Shown here in pieces: positions 6,714-16,228 of a stretch of DNA of 59,423 nt. This DNA comes from an uncultured bacterium (GTDB lineage Bacteria; Bacillota_I; Bacilli_A; RFN20; CAG-826). The stretch covers positions 68,924-128,346 of the forward strand of contig CASFZJ010000002.1 in assembly GCA_949299165.1 (NCBI GenBank), written 5' to 3'. Positions within the stretch are counted from its first letter, which is position 1. Each line of letters starts with the position of its first letter. Below the pieces are notes generated by a model. The model made no database searches and had not been told where the DNA came from. It was given only the letters and a program-made list of their open reading frames with translations. Both the position numbers and the translations under genes were made by a program.

Positions 6714-8420
6714 TTAGTATTCTCCTATATAAAGCACTACTTTATCTGGATAGTAGGCAATTTGAACTTGGCATTTTAATACAATATTTGCGCGATTATC
6801 AAATATAATCTCTAGTTTTGTATTTTGATTGAGACTTAAATTGGAAAGCGTTTTTAATAAGAGCGCCTGTAATTCTTCATAATTCACATCAAGTTTTAAT
6901 TTCTTTTTAAGTGTTTCAACGTTATAGATATCACTAATTACTAAAGTCTTAATTGATGAATCATATTGAATATCATTGATGAGCATATTAATATATCCAC
7001 TCTTTTCATATTCAGCCCATAAGTTAGGTAAAGTAACTGTAAGTAGAGTAAACATCACGCTAACAAAGTTATTAAAGAAAAGAGGGAGCGATTCAAACAT
7101 ACCATAAAAACATTGTGAGAAAGACATAAATGAAATTATCCCAAGAAGTCTCCAGTTTTGAGTTTTAATTCCACACTTTAAAGTTCTCACAAAAACATAA
7201 ATCCATAAAGCAGCTATAAAAAGAGAATAGAGAATTCCGCCTTGGAGATAAATTTCATAAAAAGAGTTATGGATATAGTAAATATAGTAATCATATGTTC
7301 TAGGAATAATGTAACTTACCCCATACCCAAAACCAAAAATCCAATCGCCTCTAGTCATATTAGGGAAAAGATCAGTAATAATATACAACCTAGTATTTAT
7401 ATAATTCTCAAAAATACTATACACAAATTCTTTTAAAGAAAGCGATGTATCTCCAATTTCAATTCTTATAAAGTTATATAAATTAAAATCGATTGTTATT
7501 AAAATAGTTAAAGCAATAAGCACTAATGTAAAGAAAGTAAATAAGACTTTTGAATGGTGCCATGATCTTATATATAGATAAACAAATAAACCAACATAGA
7601 GCATAAATGTGGCAAGTATTGTTGCTCGACAGGCTGAATAAAAAACAAAGAAAGCAAAGAAAAATGAAGGAATGATGAGCCAGTATTTTCTAAATAAATA
7701 TGCGGCAGCAATACATGTTAAAACAGCAACAAACATATTGTGCCCAAATACGTTTCCTATACCAAAAAAAGAAACAATCCAGACACTACCTTCTTCATGT
7801 TTATAAAAAACATCAACTAATCCTTCAAAGTTAATATATTTATCCCATTCATGAACAAGGGAATAACCAATAACACATAATTCATAAAGAATTATTAAAG
7901 TGAAAGCAAATATTATAAACCCTTTAAATCCTTTAACAGGTTTAATTAAAGAAAACATTGCATAGATATTAGTTAAACTTAAATAAAATGACATTAATGC
8001 CCATATCTTTTCGTCAAGGGTAGGAATATCTCGACTGCCATCAAACCAAGTGCCATATATATGTTTTATATCACGCGTAAAGATAACAAGTGCCATATAA
8101 ATAAACATCACTAGTAACACCACAGCAAAAGCAAAATGATTTACGTTTTTCTTGATGATGCCATTTTTATAAGCAATAACAATTATAAAGATATATAAAA
8201 GAGTGATAAGAGACGGAACAAGAATGATTAACCATAAAGGGAAAGTCCCACCAAAATAAATATATTGAGGGAAACTACCAATGTTTCCATCCATCATGTT
8301 GCCATAGATTGCTGAGGAGACTATAGCCAAAGCAATCAAAGTAAGATATAAAAACCCCTTTAACTTTTCACTTCTTATTTGCATGTCTCTTATTTTAAAA
8401 TTCTTTTGTTTACTTTTCAT
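6714..8420 (-). CDS. O-antigen ligase/polymerase-like membrane protein with C-terminal soluble domain
   Basis: The protein is about 568 residues with some twelve membrane segments. A loop near residues 330-375 contains the WIFGFGYG and YIHNSFYE segments, typical of the O-antigen ligase/polymerase (Wzy_C) fold. An unusual soluble tail of about 100 residues (from about 465) has strands like LVISDIYN and LEIIFDN and ends at residue 568. The family acts outside the membrane, polymerising or transferring lipid-linked glycans. A TTG at 8423 is also possible, but the ATG at 8420 is preferred; no clear ribosome binding site is present. It is the first gene of the cluster and is followed by a separate promoter. 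Confidence 0.75.
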   Translation of the reverse strand: MKSKQKNFKIRDMQIRSEKLKGFLYLTLIALAIVSSAIYGNMMDGNIGSFPQYIYFGGTFPLWLIILVPSLITLLYIFIIVIAYKNGIIKKNVNHFAFAVVLLVMFIYMALVIFTRDIKHIYGTWFDGSRDIPTLDEKIWALMSFYLSLTNIYAMFSLIKPVKGFKGFIIFAFTLIILYELCVIGYSLVHEWDKYINFEGLVDVFYKHEEGSVWIVSFFGIGNVFGHNMFVAVLTCIAAAYLFRKYWLIIPSFFFAFFVFYSACRATILATFMLYVGLFVYLYIRSWHHSKVLFTFFTLVLIALTILITIDFNLYNFIRIEIGDTSLSLKEFVYSIFENYINTRLYIITDLFPNMTRGDWIFGFGYGVSYIIPRTYDYYIYYIHNSFYEIYLQGGILYSLFIAALWIYVFVRTLKCGIKTQNWRLLGIISFMSFSQCFYGMFESLPLFFNNFVSVMFTLLTVTLPNLWAEYEKSGYINMLINDIQYDSSIKTLVISDIYNVETLKKKLKLDVNYEELQALLLKTLSNLSLNQNTKLEIIFDNRANIVLKCQVQIAYYPDKVVLYIGEY

Positions 8421-8461
8421 CAAGAAAATAGATTGTGCCAGAAGTCTAGACCTTTATTTTA

Positions 8462-8482
8462 AAATCAAAATATCTTTGATTT
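8462..8482. promoter_or_regulatory. Perfect inverted repeat upstream of the polysaccharide cluster
   Basis: AAATCAAA and TTTGATTT form perfect 8-base arms separated by ATATC, about 40 bases upstream of the first polysaccharide gene (start 8420, minus). There is no T-run, so an operator is more likely than a terminator. The binding protein is unknown. Confidence 0.4.
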
Positions 8483-8880
8483 AACTAAAATTCCTTGCAA
8501 ATCTTATATATTTTCAAATTATTATTTCAAAATTAATTTTTTGTTTCTTCTCTTTATGAAAGCCGTTACATTTTTAGGTTTATTATTATTGGAGACATTA
8601 TTTATCCTTCACTTCTTATATATTATGTTTAAAAAATATACAAATATATGATTATGTGCGGGTAATATGTGCCGGAAAACTATTATTTATTCCTTGTTTA
8701 GGTATTTATTTAAGTCTTTTATTATTTAAAGCAATTAAATTACGGAATTTATTATATTAACCAGGAGATATTTATCATCAAAAGAAAAATTTATTTTTTA
8801 TCAAAAATATTTCAAAAACCCTTATTACGTAATAATAAGCCTGCAAAAGTTCAATAATTTTTAAAATTTTTTTAAAAAAA
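8483..8880. other. AT-rich non-coding stretch with possible decayed membrane-peptide ORF
   Basis: No supported gene is visible in this interval. A plus-strand frame at 8556-8651 encodes a 31-residue hydrophobic peptide (MKAVTFLGLLLLETLF...), and a different frame just after it (8660-8760) is also hydrophobic (LLFIPCLGIYLSLLLF). This suggests a frameshifted remnant of a membrane protein, but there is no ribosome binding site and the composition alone could give this. A 14-base palindrome TTATTACGTAATAA lies at 8822-8835. A copy of the dispersed CTGCAAAA motif lies at 8841. Confidence 0.3.
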
Positions 8881-8883
8881 TGT

Positions 8884-8912
8884 TTGCAATTTAAAATTTA
8901 GCTTGCTAGAAT
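8884..8912 (+). promoter_or_regulatory. Strong sigma-A-type promoter with extended -10
   Basis: TTGCAA (8884-8889), a 17-base spacer and TAGAAT (8907-8912) form a near-consensus promoter. The -10 is preceded by TGC, giving the extended TGn element. It reads rightwards into the three-hairpin region, about 370 bases before fic, so it most likely makes a non-coding RNA or a long fic leader. Confidence 0.6.
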
Positions 8913-8918
8913 TATTCC

Positions 8919-9160
8919 ACTTAGAAATTTGTAAGACCGACGAAGGATTTCCTTCAATAGGTGATTTAGTTAAGATCGACGAGTTTAACTCAATAGATCA
9001 AGTTTTATAGAATCGACATAGTTAATCTATAAAAGATTCATTAAATTAAAGCATTAATAAAATTAAGTTACGATTATTTAGAAGAATTATTTAATTAAAA
9101 GATTTAAGGCATAGTTACTTGAGTTATTTTTATTTAAAAATCTAACAGCTTTAGGAGTTT
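8919..9160 (+). ncRNA. Candidate structured RNA with three hairpins of one plan
   Basis: Downstream of the 8884 promoter, three units at about 37-base spacing (8936-8962, 8974-8999, 9010-9039) each fold as outer stem, internal loop, inner stem. The outer stems differ (ACC/GGT, GATC/GATC, GAATC/GATTC) and the inner stems differ (GAAGG/CCTTC, GAGT/ACTC, ATAG/CTAT). The internal loop is kept: GAC on the 5' side each time, AATA, AATA, AAAA on the 3' side. Changed but still paired stems around a constant loop are covariation-like evidence within one sequence. Further stem potential lies at AGATTT...AAATCT up to about 9152. There is no long open frame. The 3' end is uncertain, and it may be a regulatory leader of fic. 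I cannot assign it to a known RNA family. Confidence 0.4.
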
Positions 9161-9171
9161 TTCAAGAGAAA

Positions 9172-9247
9172 AGTTGCTAAGCTAGTTGCTAAGCTTGTCA
9201 AAAAAAGAAGGAAAAAAATTGATAAGCTAGTTGCTAAGCTTTATCAA
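9172..9247 (+). repeat. Three copies of the 12-mer AGTTGCTAAGCT with an inverted repeat, before fic
   Basis: Exact copies lie at 9172-9183 and 9184-9195 (head to tail) and at 9229-9240. The third is inside an imperfect palindrome: TTGATAAGCT (9219-9228) pairs with AGCTTTATCAA (9237-9247). The second copy also lies between AAGCT and AGCTT arms. The block ends 33 bases before the fic ATG, so it may be an operator array or a weak terminator/attenuator (TTATTATT follows). Confidence 0.5.
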
Positions 9248-9280
9248 TTATTATTGATTAAATTGGGAAAAATTTAATTT

Positions 9281-10042
9281 ATGTATGTTCCACCATTTAA
9301 AATCACAAAAAGTATTGAGCGTTTAGTGGCCAAGATTAACGAACTCACTAAAATTTATGAATCTTCTTTTAAATCTAATAAAGCAAGTTTAAAAGATAAG
9401 TTAGTTGAAATGATTAATGCAACTTGCGCAATTGAAGCTAATTCTCTTTCGCTTGATGAAACACGCGCAATTATCAAAGGCAAAGAGATAATCGCTGATA
9501 AAAATGTGATAAAAGAAATCGAAAATGCAAATCTTGCTTATAAAATGAGTCGCTCACTTAATCCTTTCAGTGAATTAGATCTTTTAAAGGCACATGAAGT
9601 TTTAATGAAAGATTTAACTAAGCGAAACGGGAAATATCGCTTAAATGAAGAAGGTGTTTATTCAGGAAGTATCTGCGTATTTATCGCGCCGCCTCCACAA
9701 ATGGTGCCTCGCCTTATGAAAGATTTATTTAATTGGCTAAATAGAGTAAAGGGAACTTTGTCCCCTTTAATTTATGCTTCAGTTTTCCATTATGAATTTG
9801 TTTTTATTCATCCATTTCTTGATGGAAATGGACGAACAGCCAGATTATGGAACACTATTTTATTAAAAGAATATTTAAATTCTTTTATGTATCTTGGACT
9901 AGAAAAAGAAATTTGGCTTCATCAAAGGGAATATTATGAAGCCATAAACGCATCGCATAAAAATGGCGATTCCACTACTTTTGTAACCTTTATTTTAAAG
10001 ATGATTATTGAAGCGTTAAAGAAAAATATGCTTCAAAATTAG
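9281..10042 (+). CDS. fic: Fic/DOC family protein (AMP-transferase), class II-like
   Basis: This 253-residue protein carries the Fic core HPFLDGNGRTAR at 177-188. H177 is the catalytic base; D181, N183, G184 and R185 bind the ATP phosphates. In the N-terminal region T48-CAI-E52-A53-N54 corresponds to the inhibitory (S/T)xxxE(G/N) helix of class II Fic enzymes, whose glutamate blocks ATP binding; the usual G/N after the Glu is Ala here. The family transfers AMP (sometimes other groups) to hydroxyl side chains of target proteins. No antitoxin gene is adjacent, consistent with intramolecular inhibition. It is alone on the plus strand, and its upstream region is long and structured. The ribosome binding site is weak (GGGAAAA). 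Confidence 0.9.
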   Translation: MYVPPFKITKSIERLVAKINELTKIYESSFKSNKASLKDKLVEMINATCAIEANSLSLDETRAIIKGKEIIADKNVIKEIENANLAYKMSRSLNPFSELDLLKAHEVLMKDLTKRNGKYRLNEEGVYSGSICVFIAPPPQMVPRLMKDLFNWLNRVKGTLSPLIYASVFHYEFVFIHPFLDGNGRTARLWNTILLKEYLNSFMYLGLEKEIWLHQREYYEAINASHKNGDSTTFVTFILKMIIEALKKNMLQN

Positions 10043-13293: not shown

Positions 13294-13566
13294 ATGTCAA
13301 CTATTCCAACTCAAATAAGAATTGATTCTGCTATTAAAAAACAAGCTGCTGCTTTATTCGATAAACTTGGGCTTGATATGTCTAGTGCTATAAATCTTTT
13401 TTTGCATCAATGTATTTTACGTGGAGGCATTCCTTTTACTATTGAAGTTCCAAATTACAATAAAAAAGTCTTAGCAGCTATGGCTGAGGCAAAACGTATT
13501 TCTAGTGATCCGAATGTCGAATCCTATGACAATATAGAAGATTTACAAAAAGCTCTCGATAATTAA
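13294..13566 (+). CDS. dinJ: RelB/DinJ family antitoxin
   Basis: The 90-residue protein starts with a ribbon-helix-helix domain (TQIRIDSAIKKQAAALFDKLGLDMSSAINLFL), the DNA-binding and dimerising part of DinJ antitoxins. The family pattern GLDMSSAINLFLHQ is very clear. The C-terminal part (about 50-90) is polar and would wrap around the toxin. Its TAA overlaps the ATG of the toxin by one base, giving tight coupling. It is expected to repress its own operon through the palindrome at 13245. Confidence 0.92.
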   Translation: MSTIPTQIRIDSAIKKQAAALFDKLGLDMSSAINLFLHQCILRGGIPFTIEVPNYNKKVLAAMAEAKRISSDPNVESYDNIEDLQKALDN

Positions 13567-13844
13567 TGTACAAAATTAAATTTACCACTGCTTATAAAAA
13601 AAGTTATAAATTAATGAAAAAACGTGGTCTTGATTTAAATCTTTTAAACCAAGTAGTAAACACATTAGCTCAAGGTAAATTACTTGACCCAATTTATAAA
13701 GATCACGAGCTTAGAGGGAAATTCAAAGGTTTTCGTGAGTGCCACATCAAACCCGATTGGCTTTTAATATATTATATTGAAGAACAAATTTTAACACTGA
13801 TTCTTGTAGACACAGGTTCACATTCAGACTTATTTGAAATGTAA
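13566..13844 (+). CDS. yafQ: YafQ family mRNA interferase toxin
   Basis: The 92-residue RelE-fold toxin has the YafQ signature region YKDHELRGKFKGFRECHI, PDWLLIY and DTGSHSDLF. The histidines in KDH, ECHI and GSHSD, with the Asp of PDW and the final Phe, match the residues used by YafQ to cut mRNA in the ribosomal A site. The length is normal and the frame intact, so it is probably active. It is the second gene of the dinJ-yafQ pair. Confidence 0.93.
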   Translation: MYKIKFTTAYKKSYKLMKKRGLDLNLLNQVVNTLAQGKLLDPIYKDHELRGKFKGFRECHIKPDWLLIYYIEEQILTLILVDTGSHSDLFEM

Positions 13845-14045
13845 ACCATTATCTAAAGAATGATCTCATAGAATCTTATTAGTTTGATTGTCATTGAGGT
13901 TAATCAAATTCTTTTAGTTTATAACTTAACTTTCATTTTGCTTTTTCAATAATTTGAAATGCAGACAAAATATCACTTGCCCTTAATTTTCTTTCTATTT
14001 TAAAGACGAATGTAATAATTAACGGTAAATTAAGGATTTTTTTAA

Positions 14046-14088
14046 AAATATTCAAAAATCTTGAATATTTATATTTGTTTCTTATAAT
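14046..14088 (+). promoter_or_regulatory. Promoter overlapped by a 10-bp perfect inverted repeat (ATPase-TOPRIM operon)
   Basis: AAATATTCAA (14046-14055), a 5-base spacer and TTGAATATTT (14061-14070) are perfect arms. The right arm contains the -35 TTGAAT (14061-14066), followed at 16 bases by TATAAT (14083-14088). The start codon is at 14107 with TAGGAA before it. This looks like a tightly controlled promoter; no regulator gene is in the operon. Confidence 0.6.
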
Positions 14089-14106
14089 TTAAATAGGAAT
14101 AAGATT

Positions 14107-15210
14107 ATGATTATTTTAAGAATTAAAGCTACAAATTTTGCATGTTTCAATGCGTTTGACATTAATTTTGTTTACACAAAGAAAAACACTTCTTCTAATA
14201 TAGAAGATGAGTTTTTATCCTACAATACAAAATTTAACTACAAGAAAGTAAATATAATTTATGGTAACAACGCAAGCGGTAAATCAAGTTTGGGGAAATT
14301 AATATTATCTATATTTAACTTTATTTTTAATGGCAATACACAAAATTTAATTGCATTAATTAATAAAGAAAATGAAGACAGTTATTTTCTAATCGATTTT
14401 ATTTCTAAAGACGGATTGTTAACAAGAGTCGAATGCAAAATTTCTGAAAATAAAGACTTTTCTATAAAAACAGAGAGCGTGAGTTGCCGCACAGGAACAT
14501 ATAAAGCCAATTCAGAAAAATTAGATAAATTAATCGGTAAAAAAGATTTTTCAAACAACTATTTGGATTTGTTAAAAAATCTGAATAACGAAAATGTTAG
14601 TTGGCATTTTAACTTCCCTTCTACTGATAGCAATGAGATAAAATGTGCATTTACTAATCCTTCACTAAGAAACGAGTATTGCACTTTACTAACCGTGCTT
14701 TTAAAAACTTTTGATAAAAATATTTTAAGTGTTGGGCAAAGCATCGAAGCAGATAATGCATATGTTATTACTTTGAAAAATAAAAAGAAAATTATTATTC
14801 AAGATGGAATGAATATAGAAAACATTGGCATATTATCGAGCGGCACAAAATACGCAATAAATATCGCTTCTTTACTCATAAGTATTAAATATAATTTAAA
14901 TGGCTTTTATTACGTAGATGAGCAATTTTCATATATATCAAGCGAATTAGAAAATATTTTGCTTTCATTAATGATTTGTTATTTACCAACTAATTCACAA
15001 CTATTTTTCACAACCCATAACCTCGATTTATTAGATAAGTTACTTCCTAAACACTCATTCCTTATATTAAGACAAGACATGAAAGGCAATAGCCAGCCTA
15101 TTTACATCGAAAACTATATTAACAAAAATAACCAGTCTCTAAGGAATCTATATGAAAATGACTATTTTAATAATTTTGCCAATACTACAGAGATAGAAAA
15201 ATTAATATGA
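14107..15210 (+). CDS. ABC/OLD-type AAA ATPase, partner of TOPRIM protein
   Basis: The 367-residue protein has an SMC/OLD-like ATPase head. Walker A is GNNASGKS (53-60), the ABC-type signature LSSGT is at 243-247, Walker B is FYYVDEQ (267-273), and the switch histidine is H304 in TTHNLD. Between them (about 70-230) is an insert region without long coiled coil. ATPases of this kind act with a nuclease partner in OLD, PARIS and related anti-phage systems. The next gene overlaps it by 4 bases (ATGA) and encodes a TOPRIM-like protein, so a two-component DNA-end or phage-sensing nuclease module is inferred. It could also be a housekeeping repair pair, though its place among toxin genes favours defence. 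Confidence 0.8.
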   Translation: MIILRIKATNFACFNAFDINFVYTKKNTSSNIEDEFLSYNTKFNYKKVNIIYGNNASGKSSLGKLILSIFNFIFNGNTQNLIALINKENEDSYFLIDFISKDGLLTRVECKISENKDFSIKTESVSCRTGTYKANSEKLDKLIGKKDFSNNYLDLLKNLNNENVSWHFNFPSTDSNEIKCAFTNPSLRNEYCTLLTVLLKTFDKNILSVGQSIEADNAYVITLKNKKKIIIQDGMNIENIGILSSGTKYAINIASLLISIKYNLNGFYYVDEQFSYISSELENILLSLMICYLPTNSQLFFTTHNLDLLDKLLPKHSFLILRQDMKGNSQPIYIENYINKNNQSLRNLYENDYFNNFANTTEIEKLI

Positions 15211-15704
15211 AACAACGTGTTTATTATTTTGTCGAAGGACAATGTGAAAAAACATTAATTGACCTCATCAAATCTAACGAATTCAATTTAATAGTCCCCG
15301 GTGTATGCAAAGTTCTAAATGTTCTAACGCATAAAATTTCTACATTTGACTTACAAAACCTAAAAGCTCCAAACAAAATTATTTTAATTTATGATACAGA
15401 TGAAATTGATAATTTAGACATTTTGCAATTTAATCTTTCAAGGTTAAAAAAGACAAAAGCTAAAATTATCAATTTGCATAGTGTTTTATCTTTCGAAGAT
15501 GAAATCGTTAGATCGACTAATGTCGATTCGCTGAATAAAATCTTTAAAACATCATCAGTAAGTGATTTTAAAATTAAGTTTATTACCTGTAAAAACTTAA
15601 AATATAAGTTAGAATCACGCGATTTCGACATAAATAAGATGTGGATTACGAAATCAAAGTTAAGTTTTTTGCAAAATACATCAAGAGAAATTTTAAATTC
15701 TTAA
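15207..15704 (+). CDS. Small TOPRIM-like nuclease candidate
   Basis: The 165-residue protein opens MKQRVYYFVEGQCEKTL, in which E10 sits in the VEG motif of TOPRIM folds. The strand IILIYDTDEID gives D63-T-D65, the metal-binding DxD. It is shorter than OLD-type TOPRIM domains and has no ATPase of its own, which the preceding gene supplies. It resembles RloB/DUF4276-like or AriB-like partners in layout, but I cannot place it in one family. The start overlaps the ATPase stop as ATGA. It probably cuts DNA or tRNA when the ATPase is triggered. Confidence 0.65.
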   Translation: MKQRVYYFVEGQCEKTLIDLIKSNEFNLIVPGVCKVLNVLTHKISTFDLQNLKAPNKIILIYDTDEIDNLDILQFNLSRLKKTKAKIINLHSVLSFEDEIVRSTNVDSLNKIFKTSSVSDFKIKFITCKNLKYKLESRDFDINKMWITKSKLSFLQNTSREILNS

Positions 15705-15745
15705 TAAACATTTACATTTTTTTCAAATTATTAATCGATGGTCTT

Positions 15746-16228
15746 CTAATATATTTTGATTCCAGTTTTAAGAATTTCATATGTTAGGTCGAAATTATTT
15801 TCAAGCTCACTATCTCTTATCAAATCAATCTTTTTATGAAGAGTTTGTCTAATTTTTTCCATCAAACCAACCAACTTAAATCCATTTAAATTTGAAGAAA
15901 CATATAAATCAACATCACTATTTTCTTTTGCAGTACCTTTGGCGTAACTTCCGAATAAATAACAAAAGTTAATGATTCCCTTATATTCACTATTGAACAA
16001 GTCACTTAACTTAGCTCTAATTTCTTCAATAGTTAAAAGTCCTTTTTCTTCGTTAACCAGGAAATGATTATTGATACGATTACAAATTATTTCTCTTTTG
16101 ATTTCATCACTATATTGGTCATCAGTTTCATATCGCCTAAAAGTTGTAATTGGAATTTTAGCGATATTTGCGGCTTCTATTTGAGAAACTCAATATTTAT
16201 TTCTGGTTTCTAGTATTGTTTGTTTCAT
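15746..16228 (-). pseudogene. Helix-turn-helix plus minimal nucleotidyltransferase gene with in-frame TGA at codon 13
   Basis: From an ATG at 16228 the minus frame runs 161 codons to the stop at 15746 with one internal TGA (16190-16192). The N-terminal part after the TGA, VSQIEAANIAKIPITTFRRYE, looks like a helix-turn-helix. The C-terminal part carries the nucleotidyltransferase motif FGSYAKGTAKENSDVDLY, with the GS...DxD residues of MNT/DNA polymerase beta-type enzymes. No good start codon lies after the TGA until a TTG at 16000, which would give only an 84-residue fragment that keeps the GS and DxD motifs. TGA is a stop elsewhere in this window, so the gene appears disabled. MNT proteins usually act as antitoxins of HEPN toxins; no HEPN gene is adjacent. 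Confidence 0.65.

Follow-up and report, generated by a model that had tools for sequence, protein, structure and literature searches.

A candidate structured RNA carrying three copies of one putative docking site in two related species of uncultured Bacilli

Introduction

Several bacterial small RNAs of the CsrB/RsmZ type consist of multiple hairpins and titrate an RNA-binding protein (known examples are given in PMC7652899 and PMC5027483). As at the locus described here, one short RNA presents several copies of a recognition element on hairpins whose stems differ in sequence. In CsrB/RsmZ RNAs, however, the element is a GGA in the hairpin loop, whereas what stays constant here is GAC/AAWA, an internal loop with unequal sides. 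GGA occurs only in the first of the three hairpins (unit 1) and lies partly in its stem, in contrast to the GGA loops that most units of such a sponge carry. The likeness is one of possible working, and we use it as an analogy only.

A related layout is that of type III toxin-antitoxin loci, in which a promoter is followed by a short RNA repeat array 5' of the toxin gene (PMC8860590). Tandem repeats behind a promoter are also found here, spaced by 37-39 nt behind TTGCAA-17-TAGAAT. However, the repeats of ToxI, CptI and antiQ are near-identical pseudoknots, whereas those described here are two-stem hairpins of differing sequence, which give simple hairpins under nested folding. Type III loci encode a ToxN/CptN/TenpN-type endoribonuclease directly downstream; the gene found here instead encodes a Fic protein (PF02661).

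Antiterminators of the HK022 put type suppress downstream pausing and termination. They work as nascent RNA and place their hairpins at the very start of the transcript (PMC9378689). Compared by layout, the hairpins reported here would also stand at the transcript start; unlike at put, no terminator was found in the region scanned. Finally, many families of structured RNA are collected in Rfam, and like them the element is conserved, intergenic, structured and non-coding. No Rfam 15 family matches it at the gathering threshold, and nothing relevant appears even at E < 10. Here, we describe this element and argue that it is probably a structured RNA not known before, restricted to its lineage and bearing one candidate docking site three times.

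Results

Genomic setting and features

The element lies in a 59,423-nt stretch of DNA (the window), part of contig 2 of the 1.43-Mb, AT-rich genome of an uncultured bacterium (G000). Promoter and hairpins lie in an 857-base gap between fic and a minus-strand gene at 6714-8423. The latter is without a Pfam match and is named polysaccharide-polymerase-like from its membrane-protein look and its neighbors. A counterpart was found in a sister species (G013, an uncultured Bacilli bacterium MAG; contig CALVRY010000099.1). The features are as follows.

8821..8839, no strand assigned: inverted repeat CTTATTA..TAATAAG, 5' of the promoter; arms kept in G013, with three substitutions, all central
8884..8889, plus strand: -35 hexamer TTGCAA, unchanged in G013
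8904..8912, plus strand: extended -10, TGC (8904-8906) and TAGAAT (8907-8912), unchanged in G013
8913..8936, plus strand: 5' leader, 0 of 24 nt changed in G013
8936..8962, plus strand: unit 1, ACC-GAC-GAAGG(ATTT)CCTTC-AATA-GGT (ACC 8936-8938, AATA 8956-8959, GGT 8960-8962)
8974..8999, plus strand: unit 2, GATC-GAC-GAGT(TTA)ACTC-AATA-GATC (GATC 8974-8977, AATA 8992-8995, GATC 8996-8999)
9010..9039, plus strand: unit 3, GAATC-GAC-ATAG(TTAAT)CTAT-AAAA-GATTC (GAATC 9010-9014, AAAA 9031-9034, GATTC 9035-9039)
9173..9242, plus strand: short direct repeats (GTTGCTAAGCTA) ahead of fic, distinct from the hairpins
9281..10042, plus strand: fic gene (253 aa; PF02661, E = 2e-21), a neighbor of the hairpins

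Further along the window, after SDR and TPR genes, a RelB/YafQ toxin-antitoxin pair, an AAA ATPase with a small partner gene and a nucleotidyltransferase stand close together (13294-16000), a group that looks like a small defence cluster.

Promoter, leader and upstream motifs

A first, sequence-only reading of the window had called an extended -10 promoter, TTGCAA-17-TGC TAGAAT. This call holds at 8884-8912, where both hexamers are unchanged in G013. The spacer is 17 nt long in both species and differs by four substitutions; these changes at constant length support the promoter. The match alone is at chance level in this AT-rich region (7 found vs 7.3 expected). The leader can form a 4-bp hairpin (CTTA 8920-8923 with TAAG 8932-8935) that abuts unit 1 and appears in the consensus fold.

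The inverted repeat at 8821-8839 is a possible operator. Read on the minus strand, it leads into GGTTTTT. Next to it, at 8840-8862, is an intergenic motif close to CCTGCAAAACTCAATTATTTTT, which has 24 matches in G000 vs 4 for the reversed control and also recurs across the genus; it is possibly a 3'-end signal.

Three hairpins of one plan

The three units share a plan that the sequence-only reading had recognized and that folding and a descriptor scan bear out at 8936-9039. The outer stem has 3-5 bp and ends in a closing C-G pair. Between it and an inner stem of 4-5 bp is an internal loop with GAC on the 5' side (3 nt) and AATA, AATA or AAAA on the 3' side (4 nt), giving the consensus C-GAC-N / N-AAWA-G. 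The GAC motifs start at 8939, 8978 and 9015. The spacing first put at about 37 bases is thus exact between units 2 and 3, and is 39 nt between units 1 and 2.

Folded alone, each unit gives exactly the proposed hairpin. The fold of 8919-9160 as a whole, which had been suggested as a check, is unremarkable (MFE z = -1.2), so folding energy alone would not have revealed the element. In the window sequence an alternative fold that displaces the outer stem of unit 2 is better by 1.1 kcal/mol, while the MFE structure in G013 is the three-unit plan together with the 5' mini-hairpin. All stem pairs are Watson-Crick, with G-U absent, and pairing by itself therefore does not tell one strand from the other, or RNA from DNA. 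A kink-turn (L7Ae-type) site was considered and rejected: it needs a three-nt bulge followed by tandem G-A/A-G pairs, but in units 1 and 2 the bases GA that follow the 3-nt loop form Watson-Crick pairs with TC, and unit 3 has AT or GT at that point.

What stands out is the repeated plan, rather than folding energy or the promoter match. The descriptor scan of both strands of the 59-kb window returned the three units and one stray match. A covariance model of the unit, trained on the window units and their G013 counterparts, gave 51, 40 and 38 bits at the three units and 19 bits at the next place in the window. We also searched either strand for three neighboring hairpins of the same plan whose 5' internal loops are identical and whose 3' loops differ by one change at most; the triple at 8936-9039 was the only such set in the window. 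When the whole window was dinucleotide-shuffled 1000 times, a triple of some kind turned up in 105 cases, but in none did one have as many constant loop bases.

Conservation in the sister species

In G013, one of the 25 other species of the genus, the element stands in the same place, ahead of fic and the DUF308 gene. Identity is complete in the promoter hexamers, the TGC, the leader (24 nt) and the internal loops (21 bases). Four substitutions and one gap are found in the stretch of roughly 105 nt that starts at the -10 and reaches the second linker, whereas the flanks diverge by 36% upstream and 34-43% downstream, and four-fold sites in the neighboring SDR and DUF308 genes differ by 25% and 45%. 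Most changes are in linkers, hairpin loops or the spacer of the promoter; units 1 and 2 differ in their hairpin loops alone. From 9040 to 9165 the two species are not conserved (82 gap columns). The element hence ends at about 9040, short of the position 9160 to which it had first been drawn.

The inner stem of unit 3 changes from ATAG/CTAT in the window to GTAGC/GCTAC in G013, that is, by one compensatory pair (A-U to G-C) and one gained C-G pair; its outermost pair is missing in G013. Because the element is present in two species only, covariation between species amounts to this one pair and is not significant by itself. Across all six units (three per species), 94% of cells are paired and 7 of 9 pairs are changed on both sides. 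In 500 shuffles neither the pairing nor the covariation score of the real units was equalled, and when the register is slid only 27-48% of cells pair. The units are paralogues, so these double changes reflect duplication and divergence rather than independent species evidence. Together, the constant loops, the two-sided stem changes, the compensatory and gained pairs and the unchanged promoter and leader support selection on the folded structure, as had been suggested from the window alone.

Distribution

Covariance-model searches found no further copy in the G000 genome itself or in the other 24 genomes of the genus, placing the element in 2 of 26 species. None was found in 279 genomes of the order, nor in samples of the class (395) and the phylum (392); these were sampled searches with stricter Infernal filters and a two-sequence model, which distant copies with changed stems or linkers could escape. 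Model searching of relatives, the check first recommended, thus yielded one homologue with one compensatory pair and none beyond it. A pattern scan of GTDB contigs and viral contigs found two units together nowhere but in the sister species, and its other single matches were without a convincing second unit. Phage and plasmid collections gave no match. The element is real, on the evidence of these comparisons, very narrow in distribution and in all likelihood an RNA.

Weak matches in G585 (E = 0.017), G182 and G022, and single-unit matches in G024, G046 and G042, were set aside as chance: they are without further units, and those in G585, G024, G046 and G042 lie in or over open reading frames. 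Elsewhere in the window, Rfam matches are limited to one 5S rRNA, one tRNA and one TPP riboswitch (RF00059; 39541-39647, minus strand).

Relation to the fic gene

The hairpins lie upstream of fic on the same strand, at a distance of about 240 nt in the window and about 160 nt in G013. The link to Fic that was first suggested comes down to this adjacency. Eleven other Fic homologues in relatives are without such hairpins, and a scan of the regions 5' of these genes and of the DUF308 loci of relatives found no units. The Fic proteins of the window and G013 share 61% amino acid identity (39% different), vs about 4% nucleotide change in the RNA. The window protein lacks the C-terminal Fic-like_C domain (PF21247) that is present in the G013 Fic (342 aa, L019 2100-3128), even though its gene retains the repeats on its 5' side. 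Polymerase-like genes come directly after DUF308 in G011 and G017, with neither fic nor hairpins in the slot. Both therefore occupy a variable slot.

Direct repeats of 11-12 nt (such as GTTGCTAAGCTA or AATAAGCAAGAT) precede fic and its likely promoter at L027, L028, L029, L030, L031 and L033, in several genomes of the order. They resemble an operator, perhaps one for the C-terminal domain found in many of these Fic proteins, and those at 9173-9242 are possibly the operator of fic here; a literature search found no paper on short direct repeats 5' of fic. A terminator scan of 8400-9400 found no terminator-like site, and an inverted repeat near 9214-9252, in the short-repeat region, is missing a full T run.

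Discussion

We propose that the element is a short non-coding RNA with its own promoter and three docking sites for one partner, acting as a titrator or docking RNA; from the sequence comparisons at hand, we give this reading an even chance. Transcription from the sigma-70-type promoter would produce an RNA from about 8918 to at least 9040. It would carry three copies of one recognition module, in which two short stems are split by the internal loop. Since stem sequence appears free as long as it pairs, the loop would be the part that is read, and the best inference is that it is a putative protein-binding site or tertiary contact, present three times. A single partner, probably an RNA-binding protein, may be bound multivalently by the tandem sites, and the RNA would then serve as a docking array or a titrating sponge for it. 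As no terminator was found, a stand-alone small RNA remains a proposal.

For the same reason, the hairpins may be the 5' leader of the fic mRNA, acting in cis, for example by protein-dependent attenuation or through an effect on the transcribing polymerase of the kind HK022 put exerts. They lie directly 5' of fic on its strand with no terminator found between, both species with hairpins have fic downstream, and in the window the 359 nt before fic contain no ATG (about 8 expected). However, the G013 interval has three ATGs, the segment that would join hairpins to gene is the unconserved one, and fic elsewhere appears by eye to have its own promoter right after the repeats, a layout that is plausible here as well. 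We consider a leader possible though unlikely. Given other fic loci without hairpins, a diverged Fic and repeats of its own ahead of fic, we regard the hairpin RNA as more probably transcribed independently than tied to a Fic system as an obligate component.

An element acting as DNA, with three protein-bound repeated sites or extrudable inverted repeats, is improbable. The absence of G-U pairs would suit it, as would the direct repetition of the units every 37-39 bp (TAAGAYCGACGA..TCAATAGRT in units 1 and 2) and the inverted repeat at 8821-8839, which suggests DNA sites nearby. Yet a DNA site would keep its bases rather than their pairing, and here the stems change on both sides; the array also stands just after a conserved promoter, within the expected transcript.

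The order of parts, with a promoter, a short-repeat array and a toxin-like gene, recalls type III loci (PMC8860590), and Fic and the RNA share the slot between DUF308 and polysaccharide genes that is without both in two relatives. An RNA antitoxin with Fic as its toxin is nevertheless very doubtful: the downstream protein is Fic and not ToxN, CptN or TenpN, the units are hairpins of differing sequence, Fic has diverged while the RNA has hardly changed, eleven other homologues are without the array, and Fic itself keeps a motif that, by eye, resembles an inhibitory helix (TCAIEANS). We hold it equally hard to credit that the hairpins represent a new RNA family that inhibits or titrates the adjacent Fic and so controls it; the locus would then be a Fic toxin module regulated by RNA, and C-GAC/AAWA-G a new kind of loop for protein recognition.

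A remnant of a small coding gene with amino acid repeats (KTDE..SI / KIDE..SI), in which the constant loop would be repeated codons, was rejected as most improbable on frame and substitution pattern: in G013 a reading frame stays open across the three units (46 aa) and GAC and AATA are in register in units 1 and 2, but in the window this frame shifts by one base between units 2 and 3 and lacks an ATG start (a TTG sits immediately ahead of the -10 region and overlaps it), the in-frame species differences within units 1 and 2 alter the amino acid, Pfam gives no match, and the paired stems are left unexplained.

The candidate RNA makes a compact and clear example of discovery through repetition within one genome: its three units, not a broad set of species, revealed it, and they supply most of the covariation. 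RNAs as narrow as this one, confined to two species of the 26 in the genus, slip past Rfam and family-level surveys. If the element is transcribed, RNA recognition would gain a new element in the repeated GAC/AAWA loop, whose partner could be fished out directly.
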